DNA of 64,000 nucleotides. Source: Anastrepha obliqua (taxonomy: Eukaryota; Arthropoda; Insecta; Diptera; Tephritidae). The DNA lies in NCBI RefSeq assembly GCF_027943255.1, contig NC_072896.1:64746501-64810500 (forward strand), written 5' to 3'. Below are positions 847-63,445 of the stretch, one piece after another (the stretch's first letter is position 1; the number at the start of each line of letters is the position of its first letter). The notes under the pieces were generated by a model. That model was given only the letters and a program-made list of their open reading frames with translations. It did not search any database and was not told the DNA's origin. Position numbers and translations under genes: made by a program.

Positions 847-995
847 AGCAATTATAAGCTCAACGACAGTCGGTTCTACGTTGCCGAAACTACCCGGATT
901 TATATCCGGCCAAGGACTGTCACTCCGGCAGCATTCCCCGTATGTAAGTATGGGGAATGTTTATGCTGCTACAACAACAACAGCAATTATAAGCT
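847..995 (+). mobile_element. Mini-retroposon (about 121 bp) with 14-bp TSD
   Basis: A compact insertion at 861-981 is flanked by a perfect direct repeat AGCAATTATAAGCT at 847-860 and 982-995. It begins near the block CGGTTCTACGTT. It contains a short palindrome (ATTCCCCGTATG, then GGGGAAT) and ends in GCTGCTACAACAACAAC. A (CAA)n tail plus a 14-bp duplication is the signature of LINE-driven retroposition. A second copy lies at 14671-14787. The leader is related to the 5' start of the LOA-type LINE seen at 9818, and the 3' tail matches that LINE's tail at 62735 and 51165. It has no coding capacity. I infer a SINE-like parasite of that LINE. Confidence 0.75.
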
Positions 996-5745: not shown

Positions 5746-5767
5746 TTTATTAATACTATAATATTTG

Positions 5768-6066
5768 GCGGCCGCCGTAGCCGAATGGGTTGGTGCGTGA
5801 CTACCATTCGGAATTCACAGAGAGAACGTAGGTTCGAATCTCGGTGAAATCAAAATTAATAAAAACATTTTTCTAATAGCGGTCGCCCCTCCGAGTGTAT
5901 TTCTGCCATGAAATAGCTTCGCAAAAAAATATATGCCGTTCGGAGTCGGCTTGAAACTGTAGGTCCCTCCATTTGTGGAACAACATCAAGACGCACACCA
6001 CAAATAGAAGGAGGAGCTCGGCCAAACACCCAAAAAGGGTGTACGAGCCAAATATATATACATATA
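5768..6066 (+). mobile_element. tRNA-derived SINE, near full length
   Basis: The head has RNA polymerase III promoter boxes: an A box TAGCCGAATGGG at about 5778-5789 and a B box GGTTCGAATCT at about 5831-5841. The spacing is that of a tRNA gene. The body follows (AGCGGTCGCCCCT, GCCGTTCGGAGTCGGCTT, CATTTGTGGAACAACATCAA, GGAGCTCGGCCAAACACCC), and it ends in a TATATA tail. This copy lacks about 17 bases of the body (the GGCAGGCAATGG block seen at 17716). Partial copies occur at 660, 9022, 11530 and 17683, so the family is abundant here. Confidence 0.85.
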
Positions 6067-8686: not shown

Positions 8687-8820
8687 AACGTAAAAATAAC
8701 ATTCCAAAGCCAGCTGGTTCTACGTTACCGGAATGACTCGTTTTTTTCCCGACCAATGGCTGCCGCCCCAGTAAACTAGCCCTGTCTAGTGTACCGTACC
8801 CCACCCCAACGTAAAAATAA
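8687..8820 (+). mobile_element. Mini-retroposon (108 bp) with 13-bp TSD
   Basis: The segment 8700-8807 is flanked by the direct repeat AACGTAAAAATAA at 8687-8699 and 8808-8820. It starts CATTCCAAAGCCAGCTGG, carries GGTTCTACGTTACCGGAATG and ends GTACCGTACCCCACCCC. Related copies are at 32563-32664 and 63065-63148, and the same sequence forms the 5' start of the LOA-type LINE at 9818. It lacks the (CAA)n tail of the copy at 861, so two 3' end types exist. It encodes nothing. Confidence 0.75.
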
Positions 8821-9021
8821 ACCAAATGTTTTCTTTTGGTTGACTGAGTTTTTTCTTGTTTTTCTTTTTATTCTATTTCCACTATCGTGGCATACTTTTT
8901 TTTTTATAAATTTCAAATCAATTTACATTGAATAACTTTAATGTTTGGTTTATTTATTATGCTATCATTGATATTCATTTCATATTTCACTTTATGCTAT
9001 AATGTATGTAAATATAATGAT

Positions 9022-9325
9022 TCGGCCGTAGTAGCCGAATGGCTTGGTGCGTGACTACCATTCGGGAGTTCCAATCTCCCTGGATGACACAACAAAAGAT
9101 AGAAATGGTTTTTCCTAATAGCGGTCGCCACTCGGAAGGCAATGGCAAACCTTCGAGTTTATTTCTACCACGAAAAAGCTCCTCAGAAAAACCATTTGCC
9201 GTTCGGAGTCCTAAAAAGGCTTAAAACTGAAGGTTCCTCTATTTGTGGAACAAATTAAGACGCACGCCACAAATAAGACGAGGAGCTCGGCCAAACACCT
9301 AACACAAGTGTACGTGTAATTGTAT
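9022..9325 (+). mobile_element. tRNA-derived SINE, diverged copy
   Basis: This has the same head and body order as 5768-6066: A-box TAGCCGAATGGC near 9031, then CTAATAGCGGTCGCC, AAGGCAATGGCAAAC, TTGCCGTTCGGAGTC and GAGGAGCTCGGCCAAACACC. The B box is decayed (GAGTTCCAATCT), so internal Pol III transcription is unlikely from this copy. Confidence 0.8.
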
Positions 9326-9376: not shown

Positions 9377-9817
9377 CAGGCGTCCCTCGTATACCACGGT
9401 ACTTGTAAAACACGGTTTCGATATTACACGGCGCAAGAATTGATATTATTGTAATATAACACGATTTTGAAAAATATTCATTTTAAATTTGAAGTTTTTT
9501 TTCCGTTCAATAAGGGGAATACCCCAAATTCATTGCTATAAAAAATACATATCTCATTTCGATTTGAGAAGTGAAAGTACATATGCGTTTTGTCCTTTGT
9601 AAATGAAGTTGATAAAGTTTTCTTAACAAAAACTTCAACCTTTTTCATTTATGTAGTATTTGGAACGAAATTTCAGCTATCATAAAATTTTACACCCCAA
9701 GATTTGGTTTCGATGTAACACGGTACACATTGCTTTTATTTATATTATTTCAAGGTCTCGTATAACACGGTTTCGATATAGCACGGTACGAATTAACCGT
9801 GTTATACGAGGGACGCC
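9377..9817. mobile_element. pogo/Tigger-like MITE
   Basis: The left end CAGGCGTCCCTCGTATACCA (after TA at 9375) is matched by the right end GTTATACGAGGGACGCC (9801-9817). Further sub-terminal copies of the CACGGTTTCGATAT motif occur inside. Ends of the form CAG-x-GTCCCTCGTATA-x-CACGG resemble pogo/Tigger-type transposons. No transposase is present. The right end lacks the final TG-TA because the LINE leader begins exactly at 9818. Confidence 0.6.
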
Positions 9818-10266
9818 ATTCCCATGGCTGCCGGTTCTACGTTACCGGAATGACTCGGGGGTTCGGGAAACCGCCCCAGTAAACTAGCCCTTTCTAGTGA
9901 ACAGCATATCACCCCAAAGCTTACGTCACAGGAGCAACTCCTCGCAGCAACCTTGCTCCAAATGCTTCCCCTCAGGTGCAATAAGTGCCACGGGTGGAGA
10001 CATCTTAAGACCTGTTCAGGCCTTAAGACTCATAGGGAGTGGTCCACACGGTATGTGGCTTCGTGTTGCTCCCGCCAGCAGGCAACCGATGCCTCCTCGG
10101 CTACTACTCCCCCTGATAGGCCGGCACCACCAACCACCAACCGCCACCACAACCCACACCTCCACGGTAAGGAGCCTATCGGAGCAACACAACTCCCCCG
10201 ACTTAACCCATTCTTACCTCCTGCTCCAACCCTAGTGCGGGGACAAACCAGCAGCTCTTGGGACTG
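9818..10266 (+). mobile_element. LOA-type LINE, 5' leader and ORF1 start
   Basis: The leader ATTCCCATGGCTGCCGGTTC runs into a coding region. In frame 9953-10267 the translation carries a cysteine-rich block: LRCNKCHGWRHLKTCSGLKT, then TRYVASCCSRQQ. It is the same zinc-finger-like domain as in the copies at 21580 and 26945, followed by a Pro/Thr-rich linker. This is the first part of a LINE ORF1 (nucleic-acid-binding protein). The copy stops abruptly near 10266; no ORF2 follows. Confidence 0.7.
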
Positions 10267-14635: not shown

Positions 14636-14670
14636 ATGCCCAAAATTTCCGAGCATCCTCAGCGTTTCCA

Positions 14671-14787
14671 CGGCAGTCGGTTCTACGTTACCGATACGAC
14701 CCGGATTTGTATCCGGCCAAAGATTGCTACTCCAGCAGCATTCCCCGTATGTAAGAATGGGGAATGTTTATGCTGCTACAACAACAA
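14671..14787 (+). mobile_element. Mini-retroposon, second (CAA)n-tailed copy
   Basis: About 80-85% identical by eye to 861-981: GCAGTCGGTTCTACGTTACC, GACCCGGATTTGTATCCGG, then the ATTCCCCGTATG / GGGGAATG hairpin and TGCTGCTACAACAACAAG. The right flank is the mariner fragment; no clear target duplication is seen, so one flank was probably lost. Confidence 0.7.
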
Positions 14788-17324: not shown

Positions 17325-17682
17325 GTATATGCAGTTAACCTACTCTTGCCTGATCGATTGAGAGGCCGGAATCCTCAAGAAGATTATCATTATTGAAATA
17401 CATGTATGTAAAACCAATTACATTTGTGCTACTATAATAGGCGAATGAATACATATGTATTTGTTCCTTATTAGAAGATTTATTTTGCCATGGCGCTTTT
17501 GTGCACAGAAAAGTATTGAACTTAGGAGTTTTGCAATTGTTTCTGGTGTGGGAAAAAAAACCTAGCTCACCACAAATTGAATAGAAGTTTTTTGGTTTAT
17601 TTAGATCAGAAAACAAGCTGTATTTTGTGTTTGAAAATGTTCAAGCTAAATTTAAAAGCATCTCGTAGTGTTTACCGTTAAG
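17325..17682. other. No gene recognised
   Basis: Intronic AT-rich sequence; no repeat or protein match seen. Confidence 0.4.
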
Positions 17683-17900
17683 AATAACATGTTTCTAATA
17701 GCGGTCGCCCCTCGGCAGGCAATGGGAAACATCCGAGTGTATTTCTGCCATGAAAAAGCTCCTTATAAAAATATGTATATGCCGTTCGGAGTCGGCTTAA
17801 AACTGTAGGTCGCTCCATTTGTGGAACAACATCAAGACACACACCACAAATAGGAGCAGGAGTTCGGCCAAACACCCAAAAGGGGTGTATATATATAATA
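17683..17900 (+). mobile_element. tRNA-derived SINE, 5' truncated
   Basis: Body of the SINE from CTAATAGCGGTCGCCCCTCG through GGCAGGCAATGGGAAAC, GCCGTTCGGAGTCGGCTTAA and TTCGGCCAAACACCC to a TATATA tail. The tRNA-like head is missing, consistent with 5' truncation. Confidence 0.8.
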
Positions 17901-20739: not shown

Positions 20740-21477
20740 TTTAGAAAAAAAAACACAAAAGTGGATCTACCTCAAGATCCAGGTTATAGAGGATCTAGCT
20801 ATGGTCCGAAATAGGCTTTTTTGTTTGAGACCCTCCAATTTTCTACCCTTACTGAGGTATCTTCAGACAGTAATATTATATCTATTACTTCCGCCCCTCC
20901 TCTAAAGCATTCCGTGCATGGAAAGGTAAAAGTCGGGGTATTACCACTGTTACATACTGTTAGGTTAGTATTAATGATAAATTCATATTGTATAAGGACT
21001 CACATTGGTCATTCGTTTCGGTACTCCCCCATAAGGTATGCCTCGTCAGGCGGTGCTGGTTGATCGTGTGCCATATAGACGGAGGCAATTTTGATTCTGA
21101 CGCCGTCAGCAGCCTCCAATTCGATGAGCTATAGGATGGGATTAAAACTATGTTTAAATGTCTTTTTGCTACAGTACATGCCCTGGGGTTACCCTGTGTC
21201 CGCTAATAGTACAAGTTGTAGTTTTTGAGAGAATCCGCTTACCTCAGTACTCCGCACTCTGGGTTCCTGTATCAGTGCGATGTCTACGTCCTCCTCAAAT
21301 CGGAGAACGGTTAGGTTGTCCGTTGCAGTCCTGAAGTGCTGCAGATTGATCTGGACAACCTTGAGACCCATATTTATTGGTCGTTTTTAGAGGCGCTAAG
21401 CTGCATGCCCGTATGCTGCTCATTAGCGCCATCGTTTTTGGTAGAACCGGCTTCCTCCAGTTGCATGCACATGACAT
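20740..21477 (-). pseudogene. R1-like LINE, ORF1 end and endonuclease
   Basis: Reading the minus strand from 21477: a short ORF1 tail, then ORF2 starting MGLKVVQINLQHFRTATDNL (21371) with DVDIALIQEPRVRS, the first catalytic block of AP-type endonucleases in R1/Jockey-group LINEs. After a break near 21190 the second half continues: ELEAADGVRIKIASVYMAHD, then GNTPTFTFPCTECFRGGAEV and VIDIILLSEDTSVRVENWRV. These are the later endonuclease blocks. The GDFN-containing middle was deleted. No reverse transcriptase follows. Confidence 0.75.
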
Positions 21478-21715
21478 GAATGACTCAGTTTTTTCTCGAA
21501 CAAGGGCTGCCGCCTCAGTAAACTACCCTGTCTAGTGAACAGTGTATCACCCCACTCCTTACGTCACAGGAGCAACTCTATTGCTGCGTATGCCATAAAC
21601 GGCTCCACCCGAACTCCACCTCTGTTAGGTGTAATAAGTGCAACGGGTGAAGCCACCTTAAGACCTGTTCAGGCCTTAAGACACATAGGGAGTGCATTAA
21701 TTTTCACATACCTCG
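21478..21715 (+). mobile_element. LOA-type LINE 5' end fragment
   Basis: The leader remnant GAATGACTCAGTTTTTTCTC, then CAAGGGCTGCCGCCTCAGTA, leads into ORF1. The ORF1 cysteine domain is split by frameshifts (TSVRCNKCNG-like, then THREC). It is the same family as 9818 and 26893. It ends abruptly near 21695 where AT-rich sequence begins. Confidence 0.65.
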
Positions 21716-24928: not shown

Positions 24929-25500
24929 AAAAATAAAAAATAGTTTAAAAAAACTAAAAAACACGCTTTTATTGCTAATCGAACTAAAAAGTAGAAACTA
25001 AATTTTAATGACAAAAGGATCTATAATGAAGTAATAGCAAATCGAACAATCAAGTCAAAGTCAAAGTCAACTACCTCAGAACAGAATTATAACAAAAATT
25101 AAGATACAAATAGAGTAATTCAAATTAGAGTTAAAAGAGTGGGAAGCATTTTGCTTCACTTTCATAACCCTCTGTACATAGGTAGTTGCCAATAGAATGA
25201 TTGTAATATTTACTATATCAAGCATCCCACGCTTTTAACTCTAATTTGAATTACTCTATTTGTATCTTAATTTTTGTTATAATTCTGTTCTGAGGTAGTT
25301 GACTTTGACTGATCGTTCGATTTGCTATTACTTCATTCTAGGTCCTTTTGTCATTAAAATTTATTTTCTACTTTTTAGTTCGATTAGCAATAAAAGCGTG
25401 TTTTTTAGTTTTTTTAAACTATTTTTTATTTTCTACTTTTTAGTTCGATTAGCAAAAAAGCGTGTTTTTTAGTTATTTTTTTTAAACTATTTTTTATTAT
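24929..25500. repeat. Long inverted repeat, 220-bp arms
   Basis: The arm 24929-25148 and the arm 25222-25441 are inverted copies with roughly 97% identity by eye, separated by a 73-bp spacer. The shared blocks include GCTTTTATTGCTAATCGAAC, CTACCTCAGAACAGAATTAT and AGAGTAATTCAAATTAGAGT. The outer end of the right arm is tandemly repeated once more at 25432-25500. There are no coding frames. It could be a foldback element, or the product of a palindromic duplication of unknown repeat sequence. In the Rapgap1 pre-mRNA it would fold into a long hairpin. Confidence 0.85.
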
Positions 25501-32245: not shown

Positions 32246-32562
32246 CAGGTAGGTAGGTAGGGTGGTTGTCGCAAGACACACTTAGACCTTCGGCAGGTCC
32301 ATTGTGATACCACTGGAGCTTATCCTTACTCTACGTGTTCCTTTTCAAACCATCCGGTTGCTTTAATAAACGAGCAGAGCTTCGTTAGTTTTAGATGGGC
32401 TATGTCCGTTACATCGGTTAGAAATGCTGCATCGAGAGTGCGCAGCCTTCTCATAGCTAGGCTTTCACACTCACATAAAAGGTGTCTGACTGTTTCCTCT
32501 TCTTCTGTATTAAGACAGCTTCTACAGAAATCGAAGTAAACGAGTGTAAACGAGAGGATATA
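32246..32562 (-). mobile_element. R1-like LINE 3' end, nested
   Basis: The minus-strand translation reads RSCLNTEEEETVRHLLCECE, then SLAMRRLRTLDAAFLTDVTD and LTKLCSFIKATGWFEKE, then a stop. This is the C-terminal zinc-knuckle region and end of a LINE ORF2. The 3' UTR (CCTGCCGAAGGTCTAAGTGT) and a (CTAC)n tail follow. The small insert at 26584 is the same 3' end. It is 5' truncated, as usual for LINE insertions. Confidence 0.7.
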
Positions 32563-32664
32563 TCCATGGCAGCCGGTTTCACGTTACCTGAATGACTCGG
32601 GATTTTTCCCGACCAAGGGCTGCGGCCCAGTAATCTAGCCCTGCCTAGTGTACCTACCTCACCT
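32563..32664 (+). mobile_element. Mini-retroposon copy
   Basis: It starts TCCATGGCAGCCGGTTTCAC, contains GAATGACTCGGGATTTTTCC and ends TAGTGTACCTACCTCACCTC. It belongs with 8700-8807 and 63065-63148. The flanks AGAGGATATAT (left) and AGAGAATATTAT (right) may be a diverged target duplication. Confidence 0.6.
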
Positions 32665-33690
32665 CAGAGAATATTATTATAACAGACACGTACTGCTACC
32701 TGGGGATGATTGTTACCCGCAAAATGGTTTTCTGGAAACATCAACAAAAGGAAAACTCTATTAAACACTGGAGTAACTTTTTTTGAAAAGAAAGCAATAA
32801 ACTTAGACGTAAAATGGTAATTGTTTCAATCAGTCTGTCGAGCTGTCCAAAGTTATGTAGGTATGGAGATACTGTGTGTTTGAAAATGTTGACAAATTAC
32901 AACTGCCATTCACAAAAAAAATGTTTAAGCTCCAAGCAGTTCGCCTCCTTATGCTATTTATTTAAAAACAAGTATCGCGATATCTTAAATTATATCCAAA
33001 AAACAATTTTTGAATATGAAGCCTTGAAACTCCACCATCTGTAAACAAAATTAGTTTTAAAAAGAAAGATATTCTTGGCTAAGGTTTTAAATCAAATAAG
33101 ATTGGTTTAGAATTTGAAATGGAACGAAACGAGGTTAGAAAAAAGCAAGTGGACAAAACAAAAAGCAAAATATTTCTAAATTGTATTAACACTACTAGCA
33201 GGCAAAAAATGTGGAATAGAGTACTAAACAGTACGGACAGAATATATAAAGAACTGGGCCATTGTGTAGGTCAAAGTTGTTTTGAGGATGACATACAAAA
33301 ATTTGAATTTTCAAGGATTTTTAAACCCAGAAGTAATTGCATTAAGCTTAATAGCCTTTACAATAAAATCTTATGTAACTTAAATGAGAAGGCAACAATC
33401 CAACATTTTCTTAGGCGATGCCAAATATTAAAACAATACAGCTGTAATTCCTTTGGAAAACCGTCCTTAGTAATGCCGAAATAGTTCTTGTTCTAAATGC
33501 TTTTCAATGGAAACAAATAATCAATTTTATTACTAGATCTTGAAAGTACAGACATTTTGTTCTAGATGAATAGTTTTGAAAATAAACATCTACCTAATTT
33601 TTCCGGCAGACGACTTTTAAAGTCCGTAAAAGTCGTATGTTCATTTAATGAAATAAACAATAGTGTAAATAGTCTTAAGACTTTTTGTGA

Positions 33691-34063: not shown

Positions 34064-36231
34064 ATGATTTTCGTGTTGGAAAACTTTGTTTGTTTGTTTG
34101 TTAAGAATAGGCTCAAAAACTACTGGACCGATTTTAAAAATTCTTTCACCATTCGAAAGCTACATCATCCACGAGTAACATGGATCATATTTTATTTTGG
34201 AAATAGGGCTCGAGATATAGGTCAAAACGTGGACCCGGGTAACCTTCGGATGTGTATGTACAATATGGGTATCAAATGGAAGCTGTTTTTGAATGCATTA
34301 GTCCAGAGTATCTTTCATGCCGCTCCGTGACTAGGGTCTCGAGATAGAGACCAAAACGTGGACCCTAGAATGTGTTTGTACAATATGGATATCAAATTGA
34401 AGCTGTTGGTGAATGCTTTAGTACAGAGTATTTTTCATGCCGCTCCGTGACTAGGGTCTCGAGATATAGGTCAAAACGTGGACCCGGGTAACCTTTGGTT
34501 GTGTATGTACAATATGGGTATCAAATGAAAGCTGTTGATAAGTGCTTTATTACGCGGTAATTTTCATACCTATTGATGACTAGGGTCTCGAAATATATGC
34601 CAAAACGTGGACCCGCCGTGTCTTTGCACCGAATTAAACCAAATTTACACACATTGTTAAGTAAGTATTGAAGATGGTTTCCGTATAGTTTGGATACCTA
34701 TTGGTAGATAGGGTCTCGAGATATAGGTCAAAACGTGGACCCGGGTAACCTTCGGATGTGTATGTACAATATGGGTATCAAATGGAAGCTGTTGGTGAAT
34801 GCTTTAGTTCAGAGTATTTCCATCCGCTCCGTGACTAGGGTCTCGAGATAGAGACCAAAACGTGGACCCTAGAATGTGTTTGTACAATATGGATATCAAA
34901 TTGAAGCTGTTGGTGAATGCTTTAGTACAGAGTATTTTTCATGCCGCTCCGTGACTAGGGTCTCGAGATATAGGTCAAAACGTGGACCCGGGTAACCTTT
35001 GGTTGTGTATGTACAATATGGGTATCAAATGAAAGCTGTTGATAAGTGCTTTAATACGGGGTAATTTTCATACCTATTGATGACTAGGGTCTGGAAATAT
35101 ATGCCAAAACGTGGACCCGCCATGTGTTTGCACCGAATTAAACCAAATTTACACACATTGTTAAGGAGGTAATGAAGATGGTTTCCGTATAGTTTGGATA
35201 CCTATTGGTAGATAGGGTCTCGAGATATAGGTCACAACGTGGACCCGGGTAACCTTTGGATGTGTATGTACAATATGGGTATCAAATGGAAGCTGTTGGT
35301 GAATGCTTTAGTTCAGAGTATTTCCATCCGCTCCGTGACTAGGGTCTCGAGATAGAGACCAAAACGTGGACCCTAGAATGTGTTTGTACAATATGGATAT
35401 CAAATGAAAGCTGTTGATAAGTGCTTTAATACGGGGTAATTTTCATACCTATTGATGACTAGGGTCTCGAAATATATGCCAAAACGTGGACCCGCCGTGT
35501 CTTTGCACCGAATTAAACCAAACTTACACACATTGTTAAGTAAGTATTGAAAATGGGTTTCGTAAAGTTTGGTTGTAATTCGGAGCAGTGGCAACGGGTA
35601 CATCGTTCTTTTGAGCCAGCCATAATGTCGCTTACTTTTCTAACGCTTGGGGCGGAACTGAACTGTCAAATTGACAGTGTGAGTTACAATGTGTCAATAT
35701 TTCTTTCTGATTTGGATGCCATAAGGAAAAAACGTAAGTGCAACATGTAAAAATTGTTTGTGAATTTTTTTGGAGTGGATTTTGGAACAGTGAATAATTT
35801 CTTACGAAATTTGAGAATTTAATGTGAAATCCGAATGAAATTATGTGTTTGTGGAAAAAACAATTTTTTTCGTTTTTTTTTGTTGAAAAATATAAATGGT
35901 TAATGGTTAAAAAAGCTCCAATGCTTAATAAAACATATAAATTGAAACGAAAAATTCATGGATGATCAGGAAAAAAGACGATTGTTTCTTAGTTATTCAT
36001 ATGCGTTGATTTGAAATTTAAAAACAATCTTCTTTTTTCCTGATTTTCAAATTATATTTTATATTTACTCAAAAACAAATAGAAAAACAAAAAATATTGT
36101 TTATGGCAAAGCGCTTGAATAAAGAATAAAGAAATAAATAATATGAAAATCATATTATATTGTATATTTTCTGTTCTAAACCATATCTATTCTATTTTAG
36201 TGTGCCCAGCGAAGGGGGCCGGGTTTGCTAG
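34064..36231 (+). mobile_element. Non-autonomous Helitron-like element
   Basis: The 3' end has a short stem-loop (GCCCAGCGAAGGGGGC) followed by CGGGTTTGCTAG and then T. This is the hairpin-plus-CTRR terminus of Helitrons, which insert between A and T. The 5' end is less certain; it may lie at about 34064, before the (GTTT)n run and TAAGAATAGGCTCAAAAACT. The interior is a tandem array (34202-35580) followed by about 650 bp of AT-rich sequence with a hairpin (35963-36050). No Rep/helicase is present. A single unit of the same array in reverse orientation lies at 61385-61515, near Helitron Rep remnants. Confidence 0.65.
34202..35580 (+). repeat. Higher-order tandem array, units of about 125 bp
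   Basis: About a dozen units each start with GGGTCTCGAGATATAGGTCA (or a variant) and share AAAACGTGGACCC. Four unit types alternate in the order A-B-C-D: AACCTTCGG, CCCTAGAATG, AACCTTTGG and CCGCCGTGTC variants. The period is about 505 bp. A-units start near 34202, 34711 and 35215. In the third cycle the B unit is fused into the C unit near 35395, so it is shorter. Confidence 0.85.
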
Positions 36232-37270: not shown

Positions 37271-38150
37271 ATGCTGCAAACAGTCACCGACGTAAACGCA
37301 GTCCCCTGCCTGGCAATCGAAAAGGCTCATAGATCCATAACGGATAAAGGCAGAAGCAATTCTTAACCTAAGCAGAAAGGACATAAAACGTTACACTGAA
37401 CTACTAACAGGGCATTGTAAACTGAATTATCACATGAAAAAGATAGGTGTGATAGAAAACGATTCTTGTAAACTCTGCAAAGAGGCACAAGAAATAGCAG
37501 AACACGTTTTATGCGCCTGCCCAGCAGTGGCACGACGCAAACTAAATTACATGGGAAATGGGGCTATAAATCCAAACCTCCTGGTAGAAATTAAGCCTGT
37601 AGCAATTTTAGGATTTATTAATAGCCTAAAACTGTTCGAGTAGGCTACATGGCTGCACAATAGATCTATTCAAGTCGCAGTGCACAAACGGCCAATCAAT
37701 AATAATAAATAAATAAATGAGAGCCCCATGTAAATGAAAAATTACTTCCCTTCCGCATCGTAGTATCGTAGATTTTATCGCAGGATTTTGGAAAATCCCG
37801 TCGAATCCTGTCAGCTGATTGCTCTCTCACCACACAGTGTTGCCAAACAGTACATTTCGAAATCATTTACAAAATAAACTTAGAAAAATTATACTTTTTA
37901 TTCAAATAACTTAAAAACAATGTTGAATAATGTTAATTATATCATAGATAAATGAACTATTTGCATTTGCTGGTTTTTTAAACAATGAAAAATTGTAACT
38001 GATAACGCGGATGTGTGAAAAAGTGTGTAAGCAAAAATATCAATGGCAACATTGTGTCGATACAACCAAACACAAACGCACACAAACCGATGTATTGTGT
38101 AAATATGTAACTAAAAGAACGCAGTTGTTTTCTACGGGATAAGTTTTGCT
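37271..38150 (+). mobile_element. MITE (copy 1), interrupted by a LINE fragment
   Basis: The left terminus ATGCTGCAAACAGTCACCGA and GTAAACGCAGTCCCCTG at 37271-37306 match the right terminus of the inverted copy at 44361-44906. The body resumes at 37717 (GAGAGCCCCATGTAAATGAA) and continues through ACCACACAGTGTTGCCAAAC to TAACTAAAAGAACGCAGTTG at about 38120. The distal terminus is lost beyond about 38150. No coding capacity. Confidence 0.7.
37307..37716 (+). pseudogene. LINE C-terminus nested in the MITE
   Basis: Plus-strand frames read ELLTGHCKLNYHMKKIGVIE, then NDSCKLCKEAQEIAEHVLCA and CPAVARRKLNYMG. This is the C-x-x-C...H...C knuckle of R1/Jockey-like LINE ORF2 ends. It finishes LGFINSLKLFE, stop, and an (AATA)n tail at 37700-37718. 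It separates the two parts of the MITE, so it inserted after the MITE. Confidence 0.7.
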
Positions 38151-44360: not shown

Positions 44361-44906
44361 TTATGCTGAAAACAGTGAACGACATACGCAGCCCCTAACG
44401 AGCACAAAAACTCATCCCTTAGAGAACAACTGCGTGTTTTTAGTTACATATTTACACAATACATCGGATTGTGTGTGTATGTGTTTGGTTGTATCTACAC
44501 AATTTTGCCATTGATATTTTTTCTTACACACCTTTTCACACATCCGCGTTATCAGTTACAATTTTTCATTGTTTAATAAACCAAAGCGAAAAACCAACAA
44601 ATGCAAATAGTTCATTTATCTATAATTAACATTATTCAACAGTGTTTTTAAGTTATTTTAATAAAAATTATAATTTTTCTAAGTTTATTTTGTAAATGAT
44701 TTCGAAATGTACTGCTTGGCAACACTGTGTGGTGAGAGAGCAATCAGCTCACAGGGTACTACGGGAATTTTCAAAAATCGTGAAATAAAATCTACAAAAC
44801 TACGATACGGAAGAAAGGAACTTTTCATTTACATGGGGTTCTCATTAGTTTGATCGTAACAGCTGACAGGGGACTGCGTTTACGTCGTTCACTGTTTTCA
44901 GCATTA
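44361..44906 (-). mobile_element. MITE (copy 2), complete
   Basis: Terminal inverted repeats: ATGCTGAAAACAGTGAACGA at the left (44363) and its complement ending at about 44906, extended by CGCAGTCCCCT. The interior is inverted relative to copy 1 at 37271-38150, with about 85-90% identity by eye over some 420 bp (GCGTTATCAGTTACAATTTT, AACACTGTGTGGTGAGAGAG). No coding capacity; superfamily unknown. Confidence 0.75.
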
Positions 44907-51155: not shown

Positions 51156-51159
51156 CTGT

Positions 51160-52570
51160 TGTTGTAGCAGTAACTTTGCCCTGTCAGTGTAGTGTAATCA
51201 CCGGTCGTCCTCGTCTAGCTCATCTAACGGTAGGCCCAGGAAACTAGCTGTTTCGACGGGTTGGGTCCAGAGGGAGAGGGGAGTTAGATGAGTGGGTTTG
51301 ATGGGGCATGTGAAAAGGTGGTTAGTGTCGTGCGGGGTGCCTTCACATGCTGGACATATGTGTAGTATGTCGGGGTCGATAAGTAGGAGTTTAACCTGCT
51401 ACAGTATCCAGAACGTAATTGTGCCAAGGTTACGCGAGACTCTCGAGGAAGTTAGAGCTCTTTGTCTGCGATTGGTGGTGGGTGGACTCCGATAACGGCA
51501 TTCGGGGGTCAGGAGCTTAAGAAGGTGGTGAGAGTCTGCCGATGAATGTCGTTTATGGCCTGTCTGTACACTGCTCGATCCAGTAGCTAGCTGACTGTCT
51601 GTTTTGTCTTGGATCTCGTCCGCGTAGTTGAGGAAATGCCTTCTGATGTGACTGGGAAGTGGCTCAGGCTCAAGCAGGTGTCTGCATGGGTGAGGCCTAC
51701 GGTAACACCTTAACAGAAACTGCTTACTGAACAGTTTGTTATGCTCCTTAACAAGCAGCACAAGGGCGTCATCATGTAGGTGTTGTATCGGTGACATCAT
51801 AAGACATCCTGTCGCGGTCCTTAATGCAGTGTTTTGGCAGGTCTGTAGCTTCATCCACTGCAAATCACTGGCTCCAGGCGACCAGACAGGCGCAGCATAG
51901 TTTAGAACCGGTCGGCCTATTGCTTTAAAAGTCGACAGCAACATTTCCTTGTCTTTGCCCCAAGTGCTACCGGCAAGCGACTTGAGAACCTTGTTGCGAT
52001 TCTGTACTTTAGTACTTTGAGAAGGAGAGTTAACTCGCTGTCAAAGTTAACTCCCAATATTTTGGGGTTGTTAACCGTCGGAATTTTTGTGTCATCGACT
52101 TTTACCTTGAGTTGTAGCTTGACCTCCTTTGTCCAGGTAGTGAAAAGAGTCGCCGTGGATTTAGTGGGGGAGAGTTGTAAGTTTCTCGCAATGAAAACGC
52201 GAGAAAGGCTGGCGAGGTAGTCGTTTACTTTTGAGCATAGGCCATCAATGTCATTGCCCGACGCCATTATCGTGCAGTCGTCGGCGTATGAGACCAGGGA
52301 GACTCCCTCTGGAGGCTGGGGGAGTTTCGGGATATAGAACTTAATAAGCAAGGGTGAAAGGACACCACCTTGCGGAACTCCTTGCTATATTTTTCTCTGT
52401 TTAGATGTTTGGTCTCGAAATATCACCGACGAATGACGACCACTCAGGTAGTTCGCGGTCCACCTCTTCAGCCCTGGCGGGAGTGTCGACTGTAAAATGT
52501 CGTCTAGTAACGTGGCATGGCTGACTGTGTCGAAAGCCTTTTTCATGCTATAGTCAGCTATAGCAGCGTA
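51160..52570 (-). pseudogene. LOA-type LINE ORF2, RT to 3' tail
   Basis: Minus-strand reading from 52560: MKKAFDTVSHATLLDDILQS, YLSGRHSSVIFRDQTSKQ, QGVPQGGVLSPLLIKFYIPK and then SYADDCTIMASGND, with intact YADD. It continues NLQLSPTKSTATLFTTWTKE and NNPKILGVNFDSELTLLLKV. After a frameshift near 51940 comes TFKAIGRPVLNYAAPVWSPG and CLMMSPIQHLHDDALVLLVK. The shared LINE 3' end follows, and the tail complements to TGCTACAACAACAG at 51160. A stop before QGVPQG and one frameshift are the main lesions. It is the best preserved RT of this family in the window. Confidence 0.8.
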
Positions 52571-53035: not shown

Positions 53036-53505
53036 AAACTAGCATTGCGTCCACTCTTCAACTATGCCGGCGAGATCCAGGACAAAACGAGCCGACAACT
53101 ACTGGACCGGACAGTGTTTAGATAGACAATAAACGACATTCATCGGGAGATCCTCTCCACCTTCTTAAGCTATCGACCCCAGAATGCCGTAATAGGAGTC
53201 CAACCACCACCCATAGCAGATAAAGAGCTTCAGCTACCCCGAGAGACCCGCGTAACCTTGGTACAATTACGTTCTGGATGTTGTAGCAGGTTAAACTCCT
53301 ACTTATCCATAAATGGCCATGATATATATTACCAAACGTATGTCCACAATATGAAAGCACCCCGCACGACACTAACCACTTTTTCACATGCCCCATCAAA
53401 CCCACCCATCTAACACTCCTCTCCCTCTGGACCCAACCTGTCAAAGCAGCAAGTTTCCTGGGCCTACCTTTAGATGAGATAGACGAAGACGACTTTTGAT
53501 TTACT
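53036..53505 (+). pseudogene. LOA-type LINE C-terminal fragment
   Basis: Plus-strand translation: LFNYAGEIQDKTSRQLLDRT, then TINDIHREILSTFLSYRPQN, AVIGVQPPPIADKELQLPRE and TRVTLVQLRSG. It continues to PRTTLTTFSHAPSNPP. This matches the complement of 51240-51640, so the two copies lie in opposite orientation about 0.5 kb apart. 5' truncated; the stop codon region decayed near 53500. Confidence 0.75.
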
Positions 53506-60490: not shown

Positions 60491-61384
60491 ATTTACCACT
60501 GTTCACTTTGCACTAACAAAATAAAATTTCTTTCTTTTCCAGCTTTATCGTGGCAAATAATATTTTGAAACAATTTTGCGTGAAAAGTTTTAAATATTTC
60601 AGTAAATCTTCGGTTCCTATCAAATAGATGCAAAATATTCTAAATATTTACTCAAATGGTTGTTCTTATCAGAAAACAATTTAAAAAACGTAGTTTTCTC
60701 TGGAGAAAAAATACTCACGTGTTGTTTGCTTGAAAATCAGATCAGAAAGAAAGTTTGAGCGCGTCGTTGTTCCGTTCTGCATTTGCATAGATGCGCTCCC
60801 CTTTACACATAAACAACAACATCAATCATATGATACATACACTTCGTCGTGTACGAAAAAGCGGAGAAGAAGAAGAGAACTGTTCTATTCCCCTCCGCTT
60901 TAACCCAGCTATGTGTTCAGGTGCAAATGACGTTTTTGCGTGAAGTCTGATATAAAATAAGTTCTATTTAGTCTTGTTAAATTTATATAAAGTTTTCCAG
61001 GCCAAGCAAAAAAACTGACATATATTTGCTTCAACCGTATATTTGTGAGTACACAGGTAATTAATATATGAATGGTATAGGTAATATCTCATATTAGCAT
61101 AACCTTTCTGCAAAAAATTAAGGAAACGATCACCAATCACGCCGGCAATGATTCAATGAATTTTTCACTATAACTGACTTCAGATTAACGTTTATATAAT
61201 AAGCGTATATGTAACATTTTAAAATTTTTTTTAATTTTTAATAATAAGTGATCTTCCTCTTTCTCTTCCTCTTCCTCTTCCTGAAGCTATTCCTTTTCCT
61301 CTTCCATCTCCAGCTCCATCTCCTTTCTTTATCCCGGAAACGGGCAGTAAAAATTACTTCACTTAAAAGCTTTCATCAACAGCT
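60491..61384. other. No gene; CT-rich microsatellite
   Basis: AT-rich; a (TTCCTC)n-type simple repeat spans about 61255-61325. No gene recognised. Confidence 0.45.
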
Positions 61385-61515
61385 TCCATCTGATACCAAT
61401 ATTGTACAAACACATCCAAGGGTACCTTGGTCCACCTTTTCGGCTATATCTCGAGACCCTGGTCACTCAGAGATCTAAAAAATACTCTGTATTAAAGCAC
61501 TCATCAGCTCATATT
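61385..61515 (-). repeat. Single Helitron array unit, reversed
   Basis: The complement reads TTTAGATCTCTGAGTGACCA, GGGTCTCGAGATATAGCC, then AAAAGGTGGACCAAGGTACC. It is one diverged copy of the 125-bp unit from 34202-35580 in the opposite orientation. Confidence 0.7.
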
Positions 61516-62734: not shown

Positions 62735-63445
62735 CGTTGTTGTTGTAGCAGCATACTAAACCCTGTCAGTGCAACGTAGTTACCGGTCGTCTTCATCTAG
62801 CTCATCTAACAAAGGCCCAGGAAACTTGCTGTTTCGACAGGTTGGGTCCAGAAGGAAAGAGGTGTTGGATAAGTGGGTTTAATAGGGCATGTGAAAAGAT
62901 GGTTAGTATCGTGCGGGGAGCCTTCACATGCTGGACATACATATATTTGGTATGTTGCAATCAATTCTGGATATCTATCCACTCTTACCTGGAGCTTAAC
63001 CTCCTACAATATCCAGAACTTAGTTGTGCCAAGGCTACGCGGGCCTCTCGTGGTAGTTGAAGCTGGGGATACGGGATACGGTACACTAGACACTAGGGAA
63101 AAACCCGAGTCATTCCGGTAACGTAGAACCGGCTGCCATGGGAATGGCTGAAGCTCTTCATCTGCTGTGGGTGGTAGTTGGACTCCGATTACGGCATTCT
63201 GGGGTCGAGAGCTTAAGAAGGTGGTAAGAGTCTCTCGTTGAATGTCATTGAACGTATGTCTAAACACTGTCCGGTCGAGTAGTTGCCGGTTAGTTTTGTC
63301 CTGGATTTCGTGGAAATAGTTGAAGAGGTGCCTCCTAACGTGCCTGGGAGGTGGCTCAAGTTTTAGCAGGGGTCTACATATGTAGGTGAAAGCTACGGTA
63401 GCACCCGAGTAGAAACTGTTTGTATTTTGTTGTGCTCCTTGACTG
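62735..63445 (-). mobile_element. LOA-type LINE 3' part
   Basis: It starts at its (CAA)n tail (complement of TTGTTGTTGTAGCAGCATAC). The minus-strand coding end matches 51240-51720 and 53036-53505: TFNDIQRETLTTFLSSRPQN, AVIGVQLPPTADEELQPF, then CNYTKF-like residues. It is interrupted at 63065-63148 by a mini-retroposon. 5' truncated near 63445. Confidence 0.8.
63058..63155 (-). mobile_element. Mini-retroposon (84 bp) with 7-bp TSD
   Basis: TGAAGCT at 63058-63064 and 63149-63155 flanks an 84-bp insert whose complement starts GCCATTCCCATGGCAGCCGG and contains TTCTACGTTACCGGAATGAC. It ends GTACCGTATCCCGTATCCCC. The uninterrupted LINE copy at 53220-53235 shows the empty site (GAGCTTCAGCTACC), which proves an insertion. 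Compared with 8700-8807 it lacks about 25 internal bases. Confidence 0.85.

Follow-up and report, generated by a model that had tools for sequence, protein, structure and literature searches.

Short retroposons headed by a predicted HDV-like ribozyme from a LINE leader in a tephritid fly

A 64-kb stretch of tephritid fly DNA (the whole stretch analysed, called the window below) carries five short copies of a compact element, which we interpret as non-autonomous retroposons whose 5′ ~65 nt, derived from a tephritid LINE leader, form a predicted HDV-like self-cleaving ribozyme; we give this interpretation a probability of roughly 0.7. What was observed comprises the insertions, their target-site duplications or an empty site, a common leader, conserved pseudoknotted pairing within that leader, and a predicted cut that coincides with the 5′ end of two copies (T2a and T2c). 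The conservation of the leader, the 5′ ends found for T2a and T2c, and the absence of Pol III boxes find a single explanation in the HDV-like fit. The sequence-only reading of this DNA had already described a family built on a LINE leader, with or without the LINE 3′ end and with duplications on some copies, all of which stands; the ribozyme fit of the leader had escaped it. The account of the short elements draws on this one 64-kb window together with one Anastrepha ludens protein.

Five short insertions and their target sites

The short copies fall into type 1 (T1a and T1b) and type 2 (T2a, T2b, and T2c) (Table 1). Three of them had been proposed from the sequence alone, at 861-981 (T1a), 8700-8807 (T2a) and near 63 kb (T2c), and were found at these places, with direct repeats of 14 bp (847/982), 13 bp (8687/8808), and 7 bp (63058/63149) that are exact at the insertion edges; the copies at 14663-14786 (T1b) and 32562-32665 (T2b) had been overlooked. 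When spans of the same length were placed at random in the window (5000 trials), equally long exact end repeats were carried by 4, 9, and 55 spans for T1a, T2a, and T2c, respectively, which puts the repeats of T1a and T2a above chance. The three insertions also stop short of LINE coding sequence.

Because 55 of the 5000 random spans match it, the 7-bp repeat of T2c is weak when taken alone, and this insertion is shown instead by empty sites. T2c sits inside a minus-strand LINE, and the search for empty sites that had been proposed for the family turned up two LINE paralogues in the window without the insertion: the T2c flanks, joined with one copy of the duplication, gave a gap-free alignment over 89 bp to the paralogues near 53.2 kb and 51.4 kb. 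Since the 53.2-kb empty site reads GCTGAAGCT, we read the T2c duplication as 9-bp repeats that differ at one base, which makes the element 82 bp long in place of the 84 bp given earlier; the lengths of 121 bp for T1a and 108 bp for T2a are kept. Firm evidence of insertion is thus available for three of the five short copies, namely T1a and T2a (long duplications) and T2c (two paralogous empty sites).

For T1b, no target duplication was found, the longest exact end repeat being 4 bp (equalled in 2075 of 5000 random spans). The right flank of T1b is mariner-like DNA and no mariner match was seen on the left; with such a flank on one side only, the insertion site may have been rearranged afterwards. 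The end repeat of T2b, matching at 8 of 9 positions, is not significant (200 of 4000 random trials were equally good).

Table 1 Positions of the short copies, their flanks, the predicted ribozyme parts, and related LINE pieces in the window
Feature	Position	Strand	Description or evidence
T1a left target-site duplication	847..860	.	AGCAATTATAAGCT; 14/14 identical to 982-995
T1a	861..981	+	121 bp; ribozyme-like leader minus ~5 first nt (most of P1 5′ strand), 3′ stem-loop, LINE 3′ end with (CAA)n
T1a right target-site duplication	982..995	.	14/14 identical to 847-860
T2a left target-site duplication	8687..8699	.	AACGTAAAAATAA; 13/13 identical to 8808-8820
T2a	8700..8807	+	108 bp; complete ribozyme-like leader, CTAG hairpin, C-rich end
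T2a predicted ribozyme core	8700..8735	+	P1 8700-8705/8730-8735 (6/6), P2 5′ strand 8709-8715, P3 8716-8718/8727-8729, L3 8719-8726; descriptor scan
T2a predicted P4, J4/2, and P2 3′ strand	8738..8764	+	P4 8738-8752 (3 bp), J4/2 CCAAT 8753-8757 (putative catalytic C), P2 3′ strand 8758-8764; descriptor scan
T2a right target-site duplication	8808..8820	.	13/13 identical to 8687-8699
Leader of LINE copy	9817..9925	+	P1 6/6, P4/P2′ region shortened, continues into LINE sequence
T1b	14663..14786	+	Leader with P1 5′ strand CGTTTC, T1a-type 3′ stem-loop, (CAA)n; 90% identical to T1a over 121 bp
T1b predicted ribozyme core, P1 and P2	14663..14728	+	P1 14663-14668/14693-14698 (5/6, one U-U), P2 14672-14678/14722-14728 (7/7 with G-U)
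T1b predicted ribozyme core, rest	14663..14728	+	P3 14679-14681/14690-14692, L3 14682-14689, J4/2 CCAAA 14717-14721
Leader of second LINE copy	21478..21585	+	5′ part missing
T2b	32562..32665	+	104 bp, lacking ~3 nt at 5′ end; 32553-32561 and 32666-32674 as possible duplication (AGAGGATAT/AGAGAATAT)
Second LINE 3′ terminus	51157..51170	-	CTGCTACAACAACA
Reverse-transcriptase piece of family LINE copy	51920..52384	-	PF00078, E 9.1e-12; 75% identity to Anastrepha ludens LOC128864703 (63% of query)
T2c empty site (paralogous LINE copy)	53226..53234	-	
LINE 3′ terminus	62736..62755	-	TATGCTGCTACAACAACAAC; identical to T1a 3′ end
T2c left target duplication	63056..63064	.	GTTGAAGCT vs GCTGAAGCT at 63147-63155; 7 exact bases, 9-bp reading by eye with 53-kb empty site
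T2c	63065..63146	-	82 bp; begins CATTCC (P1), internal loss of P4 3′ side, J4/2, and P2 3′ strand; empty sites

A leader shared with LINE copies

The core that the short copies were said to share, GGTTCTACGTTACCG, occurs exactly at 8716, 9833, 14679, and 63116 (minus strand), while the copy at 872 is one base off it and T1a therefore carries GGTTCTACGTTGCCG. When up to two changes were allowed, 0.05 matches were expected from shuffling the window. The occurrence at 9833 lies in the leader of the LINE copy beginning at 9817, in agreement with the earlier claim that a LINE leader contains the core. No target duplication was found for this LINE copy with 8- to 10-mers. The LINE had been called LOA-type, a putative clade name; what its family shows is a reverse-transcriptase domain and tephritid relatives. 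Just upstream of the second LINE leader at 21478-21585, the start of the LINE leader is present in inverted orientation (21441-21455), as a 5′ inversion (twin-priming-like) would leave.

Seven leader copies were compared, consisting of T1a, T1b, T2a, T2b, T2c, and the LINE leaders at 9817 and 21478 onward. Five of them are damaged: T1a and T2b are missing part of the P1 5′ strand, T2c and the 9.8-kb LINE are without the P2′ region, and the 21-kb LINE is without its start. A covariance model of the leader (P2, P3, and P4, with P1 left out), built from the same seven copies and run on both strands with filters off, matched the seven loci at 32.7-86.9 bits, and the next best locus reached 11.4 bits. 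Because the model was built from these seven copies, their scores are high by construction; the telling point is that nothing else comes near. A 25-base leader pattern had no matches in viral_contigs and none in genome_contigs. A looser leader pattern brought up 3 bacterial and 10 viral contigs, which scored 10.5-17.0 bits against 32.7-86.9 for the window copies, although they had been picked by part of the very leader model that scored them; these matches were taken as chance.

Predicted HDV-like fold of the leader

Judged from its sequence, the leader is likely an HDV-like self-cleaving ribozyme, with nested P2, P3, and P4 and a P1 pseudoknot. As the leader folds in prediction as an HDV-like double pseudoknot, the shared core corresponds to P3-L3-P3′. 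In a MAFFT alignment of the seven copies (87 columns), 99 of 110 pair cells (90%) are standard under the HDV topology, a count in which the P4 cells of T2c lie in a shifted register owing to the T2c deletion. Moving the partners by 1-3 columns lowered standard pairing to 18-46%; among 500 column shuffles, 99 was reached twice. Changes on both sides were seen at seven pairs, as compared with 0-4 when the partners were slid, and five of 500 shuffles reached seven. The pair of columns 13 and 63 stems from the 9.8-kb copy with its deleted P2′ and is an alignment artefact, so the credible double-changed pairs number six, two each in P1, P2, and P4, with both of the P1 ones depending on T1b alone. 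Further pair types were no more numerous than in shuffles (246 of 500 reached the count).

The helices can be followed in the individual copies. T2a pairs CATTCC/GGAATG in P1, GCCAGCT/GGCTGCC in P2 (6/7), GGT/ACC in P3, which closes an L3 of TCTACGTT, and TCG...CGA in P4. The same P1, CATTCC/GGAATG, is found in the 9.8-kb LINE and T2c, and T1b has CGTTTC/GATACG (one U-U). P2 reads GACAGTC/GACTGTC in T1a (865-871/915-921, 7/7), GGCAGTC/GATTGCT in T1b (7/7 with G-U), and GGCAGCC/GGCTGCG in T2b (6/7, by eye in the alignment), and the full GGCAGCC/GGCTGCC suggested by the copies together is present in no single LINE-like copy. P3-L3 is conserved: in four of the six copies keeping the region, GGTTCTACGTTACC is followed directly by P1′, the departures being one change in T1a (GCC, still paired) and two in L3 of T2b. 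L3 is 8 nt long. For the P1.1 mini-helix, one or two pairs at most seem possible by eye. In HDV-like ribozymes, the catalytic C in J4/2 stands in a C-N-A-A pattern; J4/2 of the leader is CCAA in four of the five copies that keep it and ACAA in the 21-kb LINE copy.

Descriptor scans were also performed. A stricter HDV descriptor, which was written first, had no matches in the window and one locus in 20 shuffles. A relaxed descriptor, written after the copies had been seen, matched in the window only T2a (from base 8700, directly next to the duplication) and T1b; 100 shuffles of the whole window gave one locus. The whole descriptor thus fits only two of the seven copies, and of these T2a has just 3 bp in P4, while P1 of T1b contains a U-U mismatch; such a mismatch is the postulated cause of weak activity in another HDV-like ribozyme (excerpts of PMC3774820). 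P1 alone is weak per copy, as random upstream 10-mers equal it in 950 (T2a), 2940 (T1b), and 931 (9.8-kb LINE) of 20000 cases. The nested folding energy is far better than that of shuffles for T1a (z -5.45) and T1b (z -4.07), largely owing to the 3′ stem-loop, and no better than shuffles for T2a (z 0.12), T2c (z -1.07), and the 9.8-kb leader (z -0.22). Rfam gave no family at gathering score in the whole window and no HDV family for T1a, T2b, T1b, or T2a at permissive E-values; according to excerpts of PMC4035085, the earlier search requirements for HDV-like ribozymes were too restrictive. Two other candidates were set aside. Sub-threshold Rfam matches of the type-1 3′ stem-loop to the miRNA hairpins MIR172 and mir-16 (E ~0.004 and ~0.005, respectively) and mir-15 (0.044) were taken as chance, and a nested cloverleaf or tRNA-like leader was abandoned because the HDV fold accounts for P2, P3, and P4 as its nested helices and ARAGORN finds nothing.

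5′ ends and the predicted cleavage point

HDV-like ribozymes cleave just 5′ of P1. T2a and T2c, the short copies with a complete P1 and a supported 5′ junction, both begin at the first base of P1, that is, at the predicted cut; for T2c this follows the 9-bp duplication reading with the 53-kb empty site. T1a and T2b begin ~5 and ~3 nt inside the leader, as 5′ truncations would. The leader opens with C, which is also the first base of the five trypanosomatid ribozymes that PMC4035085 mapped (excerpts).

No homologue was found for the peptide encoded by T1a, and one was found for that of T1b, in A. ludens. A T1 copy lies inside the A. ludens predicted protein LOC128869503 (PF13359 transposase domain listed), running into SVSTAVGSTLPKRPGF...AATTTTTT in the T1b frame. 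Of 56 aligned residues, 40 are identical to the T1b peptide, and unbroken identity sets in with the codon that contains the first base of P1. The A. ludens peptide closes with six threonines, which is what a longer ACA run would encode. Its residues would allow P1′ to be GAAACG, a full partner for CGTTTC (read from the protein alone).

Two types of 3′ end

Type 1 consists of the leader, a strong stem-loop, and the last 20 nt of a LINE with (CAA)n. The (CAA)n tail had been ascribed to the LINE, and rightly so: the last 20 nt of T1a (962-981) and the LINE 3′ end at 62755-62736 (minus strand) do not differ at any position. Type 1 therefore has both the 5′ and 3′ ends of a LINE without the ORFs, which defines a SIDE (short internally deleted element), and SIDE is the nearer term for it than SINE. 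The name SINE in the strict Pol III sense finds no support, since the head is homologous to a LINE leader, ARAGORN reports no tRNA in the window, and no Rfam family reaches the gathering score there. Beyond the last 20 nt, the LINE 3′ ends of the window contain nothing that matches the type-1 stem-loop (T1a 928-969). The true helper of type 1 may be a different LINE; a full-length LINE ending in GGGGAATGTTTATGCTGC plus (CAA)n would be that helper, and one with the C-rich end would be the helper of type 2. Two tail patterns had no matches in viral_contigs.

Type 2 (82-108 bp) closes with a CTAG hairpin, GTGTACC, and a C-rich stretch; at this point both LINE leaders read GTGAACAG and continue as LINE. 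The end given earlier for this type, ACCCCACCCC, is true of the copy at 8700, but the other two copies end in CTACCTCACCTC and CCGTATCCCGTATCCCC. By comparison with the LINEs of the window, the LINE 3′ end is absent from T2a, T2b, and T2c, and type 2 is accordingly not a SIDE as defined above. Because the three copies (three only) share their end at unrelated sites, type 2 is more likely a lineage than the result of random truncation. As a tentative suggestion, about which we are more doubtful than hopeful, type 2 might consist of hardly anything but a ribozyme, releasing its own 5′ end and moving without the LINE 3′ end, the leader or the C-rich end alone recruiting the LINE machinery. If this were true, ribozyme-headed dispersed SIDEs would, together with type 1, be a regular short-retroposon class in tephritid flies. 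Type 2 also raises the question of whether a LINE tail is needed at all.

Discussion

The likeliest route for the short elements can be outlined. Their RNA would be made as part of a host or LINE transcript, or would start from a Pol II promoter within the leader. Ribozyme cleavage just 5′ of P1 would then set an exact 5′ end, and the LINE protein, which would recognize the LINE tail on type 1, would use target-primed reverse transcription to insert a copy of this RNA elsewhere, with duplications as the result.

A fixed transcription start would predict exact 5′ ends at CATTCC just as well, and positions +24 to +27 of the LINE leader, counted from its first base, read CGTT. The leader could accordingly be an internal Pol II promoter only (initiator plus downstream CGTT), with its conservation and the exact 5′ ends reflecting the start of transcription. 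However, a promoter does not predict the compensatory changes in P1, P2, and P4 or the conserved CCAA, and we consider this explanation unlikely. In the trypanosomatid Pr77, an essential CGTG is located at +25 to +28 (with a CGTT variant in TRAS1), and Pr77 is also an HDV-like ribozyme (excerpts of PMC4748587). Both functions coexist there, so a promoter may add to the ribozyme instead of replacing it, and by analogy the fly leader may also be a Pol II promoter.

A different objection is that the short copies could be random by-products of LINE retrotransposition (aborted or internally deleted cDNAs) that form no lineages of their own, as T2c is internally deleted relative to T2a and the 9.8-kb and 21-kb LINE leaders are rearranged too. 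Nevertheless, T1a and T1b, which lie at unrelated sites, are built alike and are 90% identical over 121 bp, the type-1 make-up recurs in the A. ludens protein, and the GTGTACC that T2a, T2b, and T2c have in common near the 3′ end corresponds to GTGAACAG in both LINE leaders; by-products are thus quite improbable. Scarcely credible is the view that both types are tRNA-type or other Pol III SINEs with decayed boxes. P2, P3, and P4 do fold like a truncated cloverleaf and GGTTC starts like a B box (by eye), but GGTTC forms part of P3/L3, in a leader that also heads a LINE copy and there continues as LINE sequence. ARAGORN detected no tRNA in the window, which also upholds the earlier statement that tRNA-like Pol III boxes are lacking.

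Returning to a self-cleaving leader as the preferred explanation, several known systems can be compared with it. Baggins belongs to the LOA clade. This LINE is reported to be cleaved at the element 5′ end; it is autonomous, and no short derivatives are described in the excerpts of PMC3774820. The R2 SIDEs and R2/R1 hybrid SIDEs of Drosophila likewise combine a LINE HDV-like ribozyme with a LINE 3′ end and are non-autonomous, the hybrid SIDEs having 14-bp duplications; their authors did not name the R2 SIDEs SINEs because these are not Pol III transcribed (PMC3414825, excerpts). As described there, R2 SIDEs sit in rDNA, rely on 28S co-transcription, and include the 529-bp R2Dwi_SIDE, whereas the tephritid elements are dispersed, measure 82-124 bp, and have another helper LINE; moreover, type 2 is without a LINE 3′ end, unlike the R2 SIDEs of that source.

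The trypanosomatid NARTc, RIME, and SIDER are short elements with the first ~77 nt of a LINE (Pr77), which is an HDV-like ribozyme; a CGTG promoter motif lies in the P3 loop region, and the elements were screened for duplications of 7-11 nt. They differ in their protist hosts, poly-A tracts, and greater length, while the fly elements end in (CAA)n or a C-rich stretch (both comparisons from excerpts of PMC4035085 and PMC4748587). Pr77 of L1Tc starts CCCTGGCTCAGCCGG (a primer in the excerpted PMC4748587) and resembles the fly leader CATTCCCATGGCAGCCGG by eye. Hammerhead retrozymes are also small non-autonomous retroelements with a self-cleaving ribozyme, but have a hammerhead fold and circular RNA (listing entries for PMC4918200 and PMC7229834), and the fly elements give no sign of a hammerhead fold.

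Among the literature matches listed (titles and abstract starts, with subscription papers and repeat libraries excluded), no such elements were found for tephritids. The principle of ribozyme-headed SIDEs is already known; what seems new is their dispersed 82-124-bp version in tephritid flies and the tail-less type. A dispersed ribozyme-headed SIDE of ~120 bp would show the minimum of LINE parasitism, a self-trimming 5′ end plus ~20 nt of LINE tail. The leader is a small candidate ribozyme that can be tested at once, and the insertions could cut host transcripts in tephritid flies.

Other repeats in the window

Several further repeats were recorded. The intervals 9013-9314, 5757-6045, and 17678-17889 form a repeat family whose head near 9022 (GTAGCCGAATGGCTTGGTGCG...GAGTTCCAATCTC) resembles a tRNA-derived SINE by eye, with no tRNA reported by ARAGORN; it would represent the ordinary Pol III kind in the same window as the ribozyme-headed elements. 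The region 34203-35572 contains several related repeat units close by, and a related inverted piece lies at 61350-61506. An inverted repeat pair of ~440 bp, 88% identical, is formed by 37716-38147 and 44407-44846. Finally, the ~500 bp at 24930-25432 match their own reverse complement at 87% and thus form a long imperfect palindrome.
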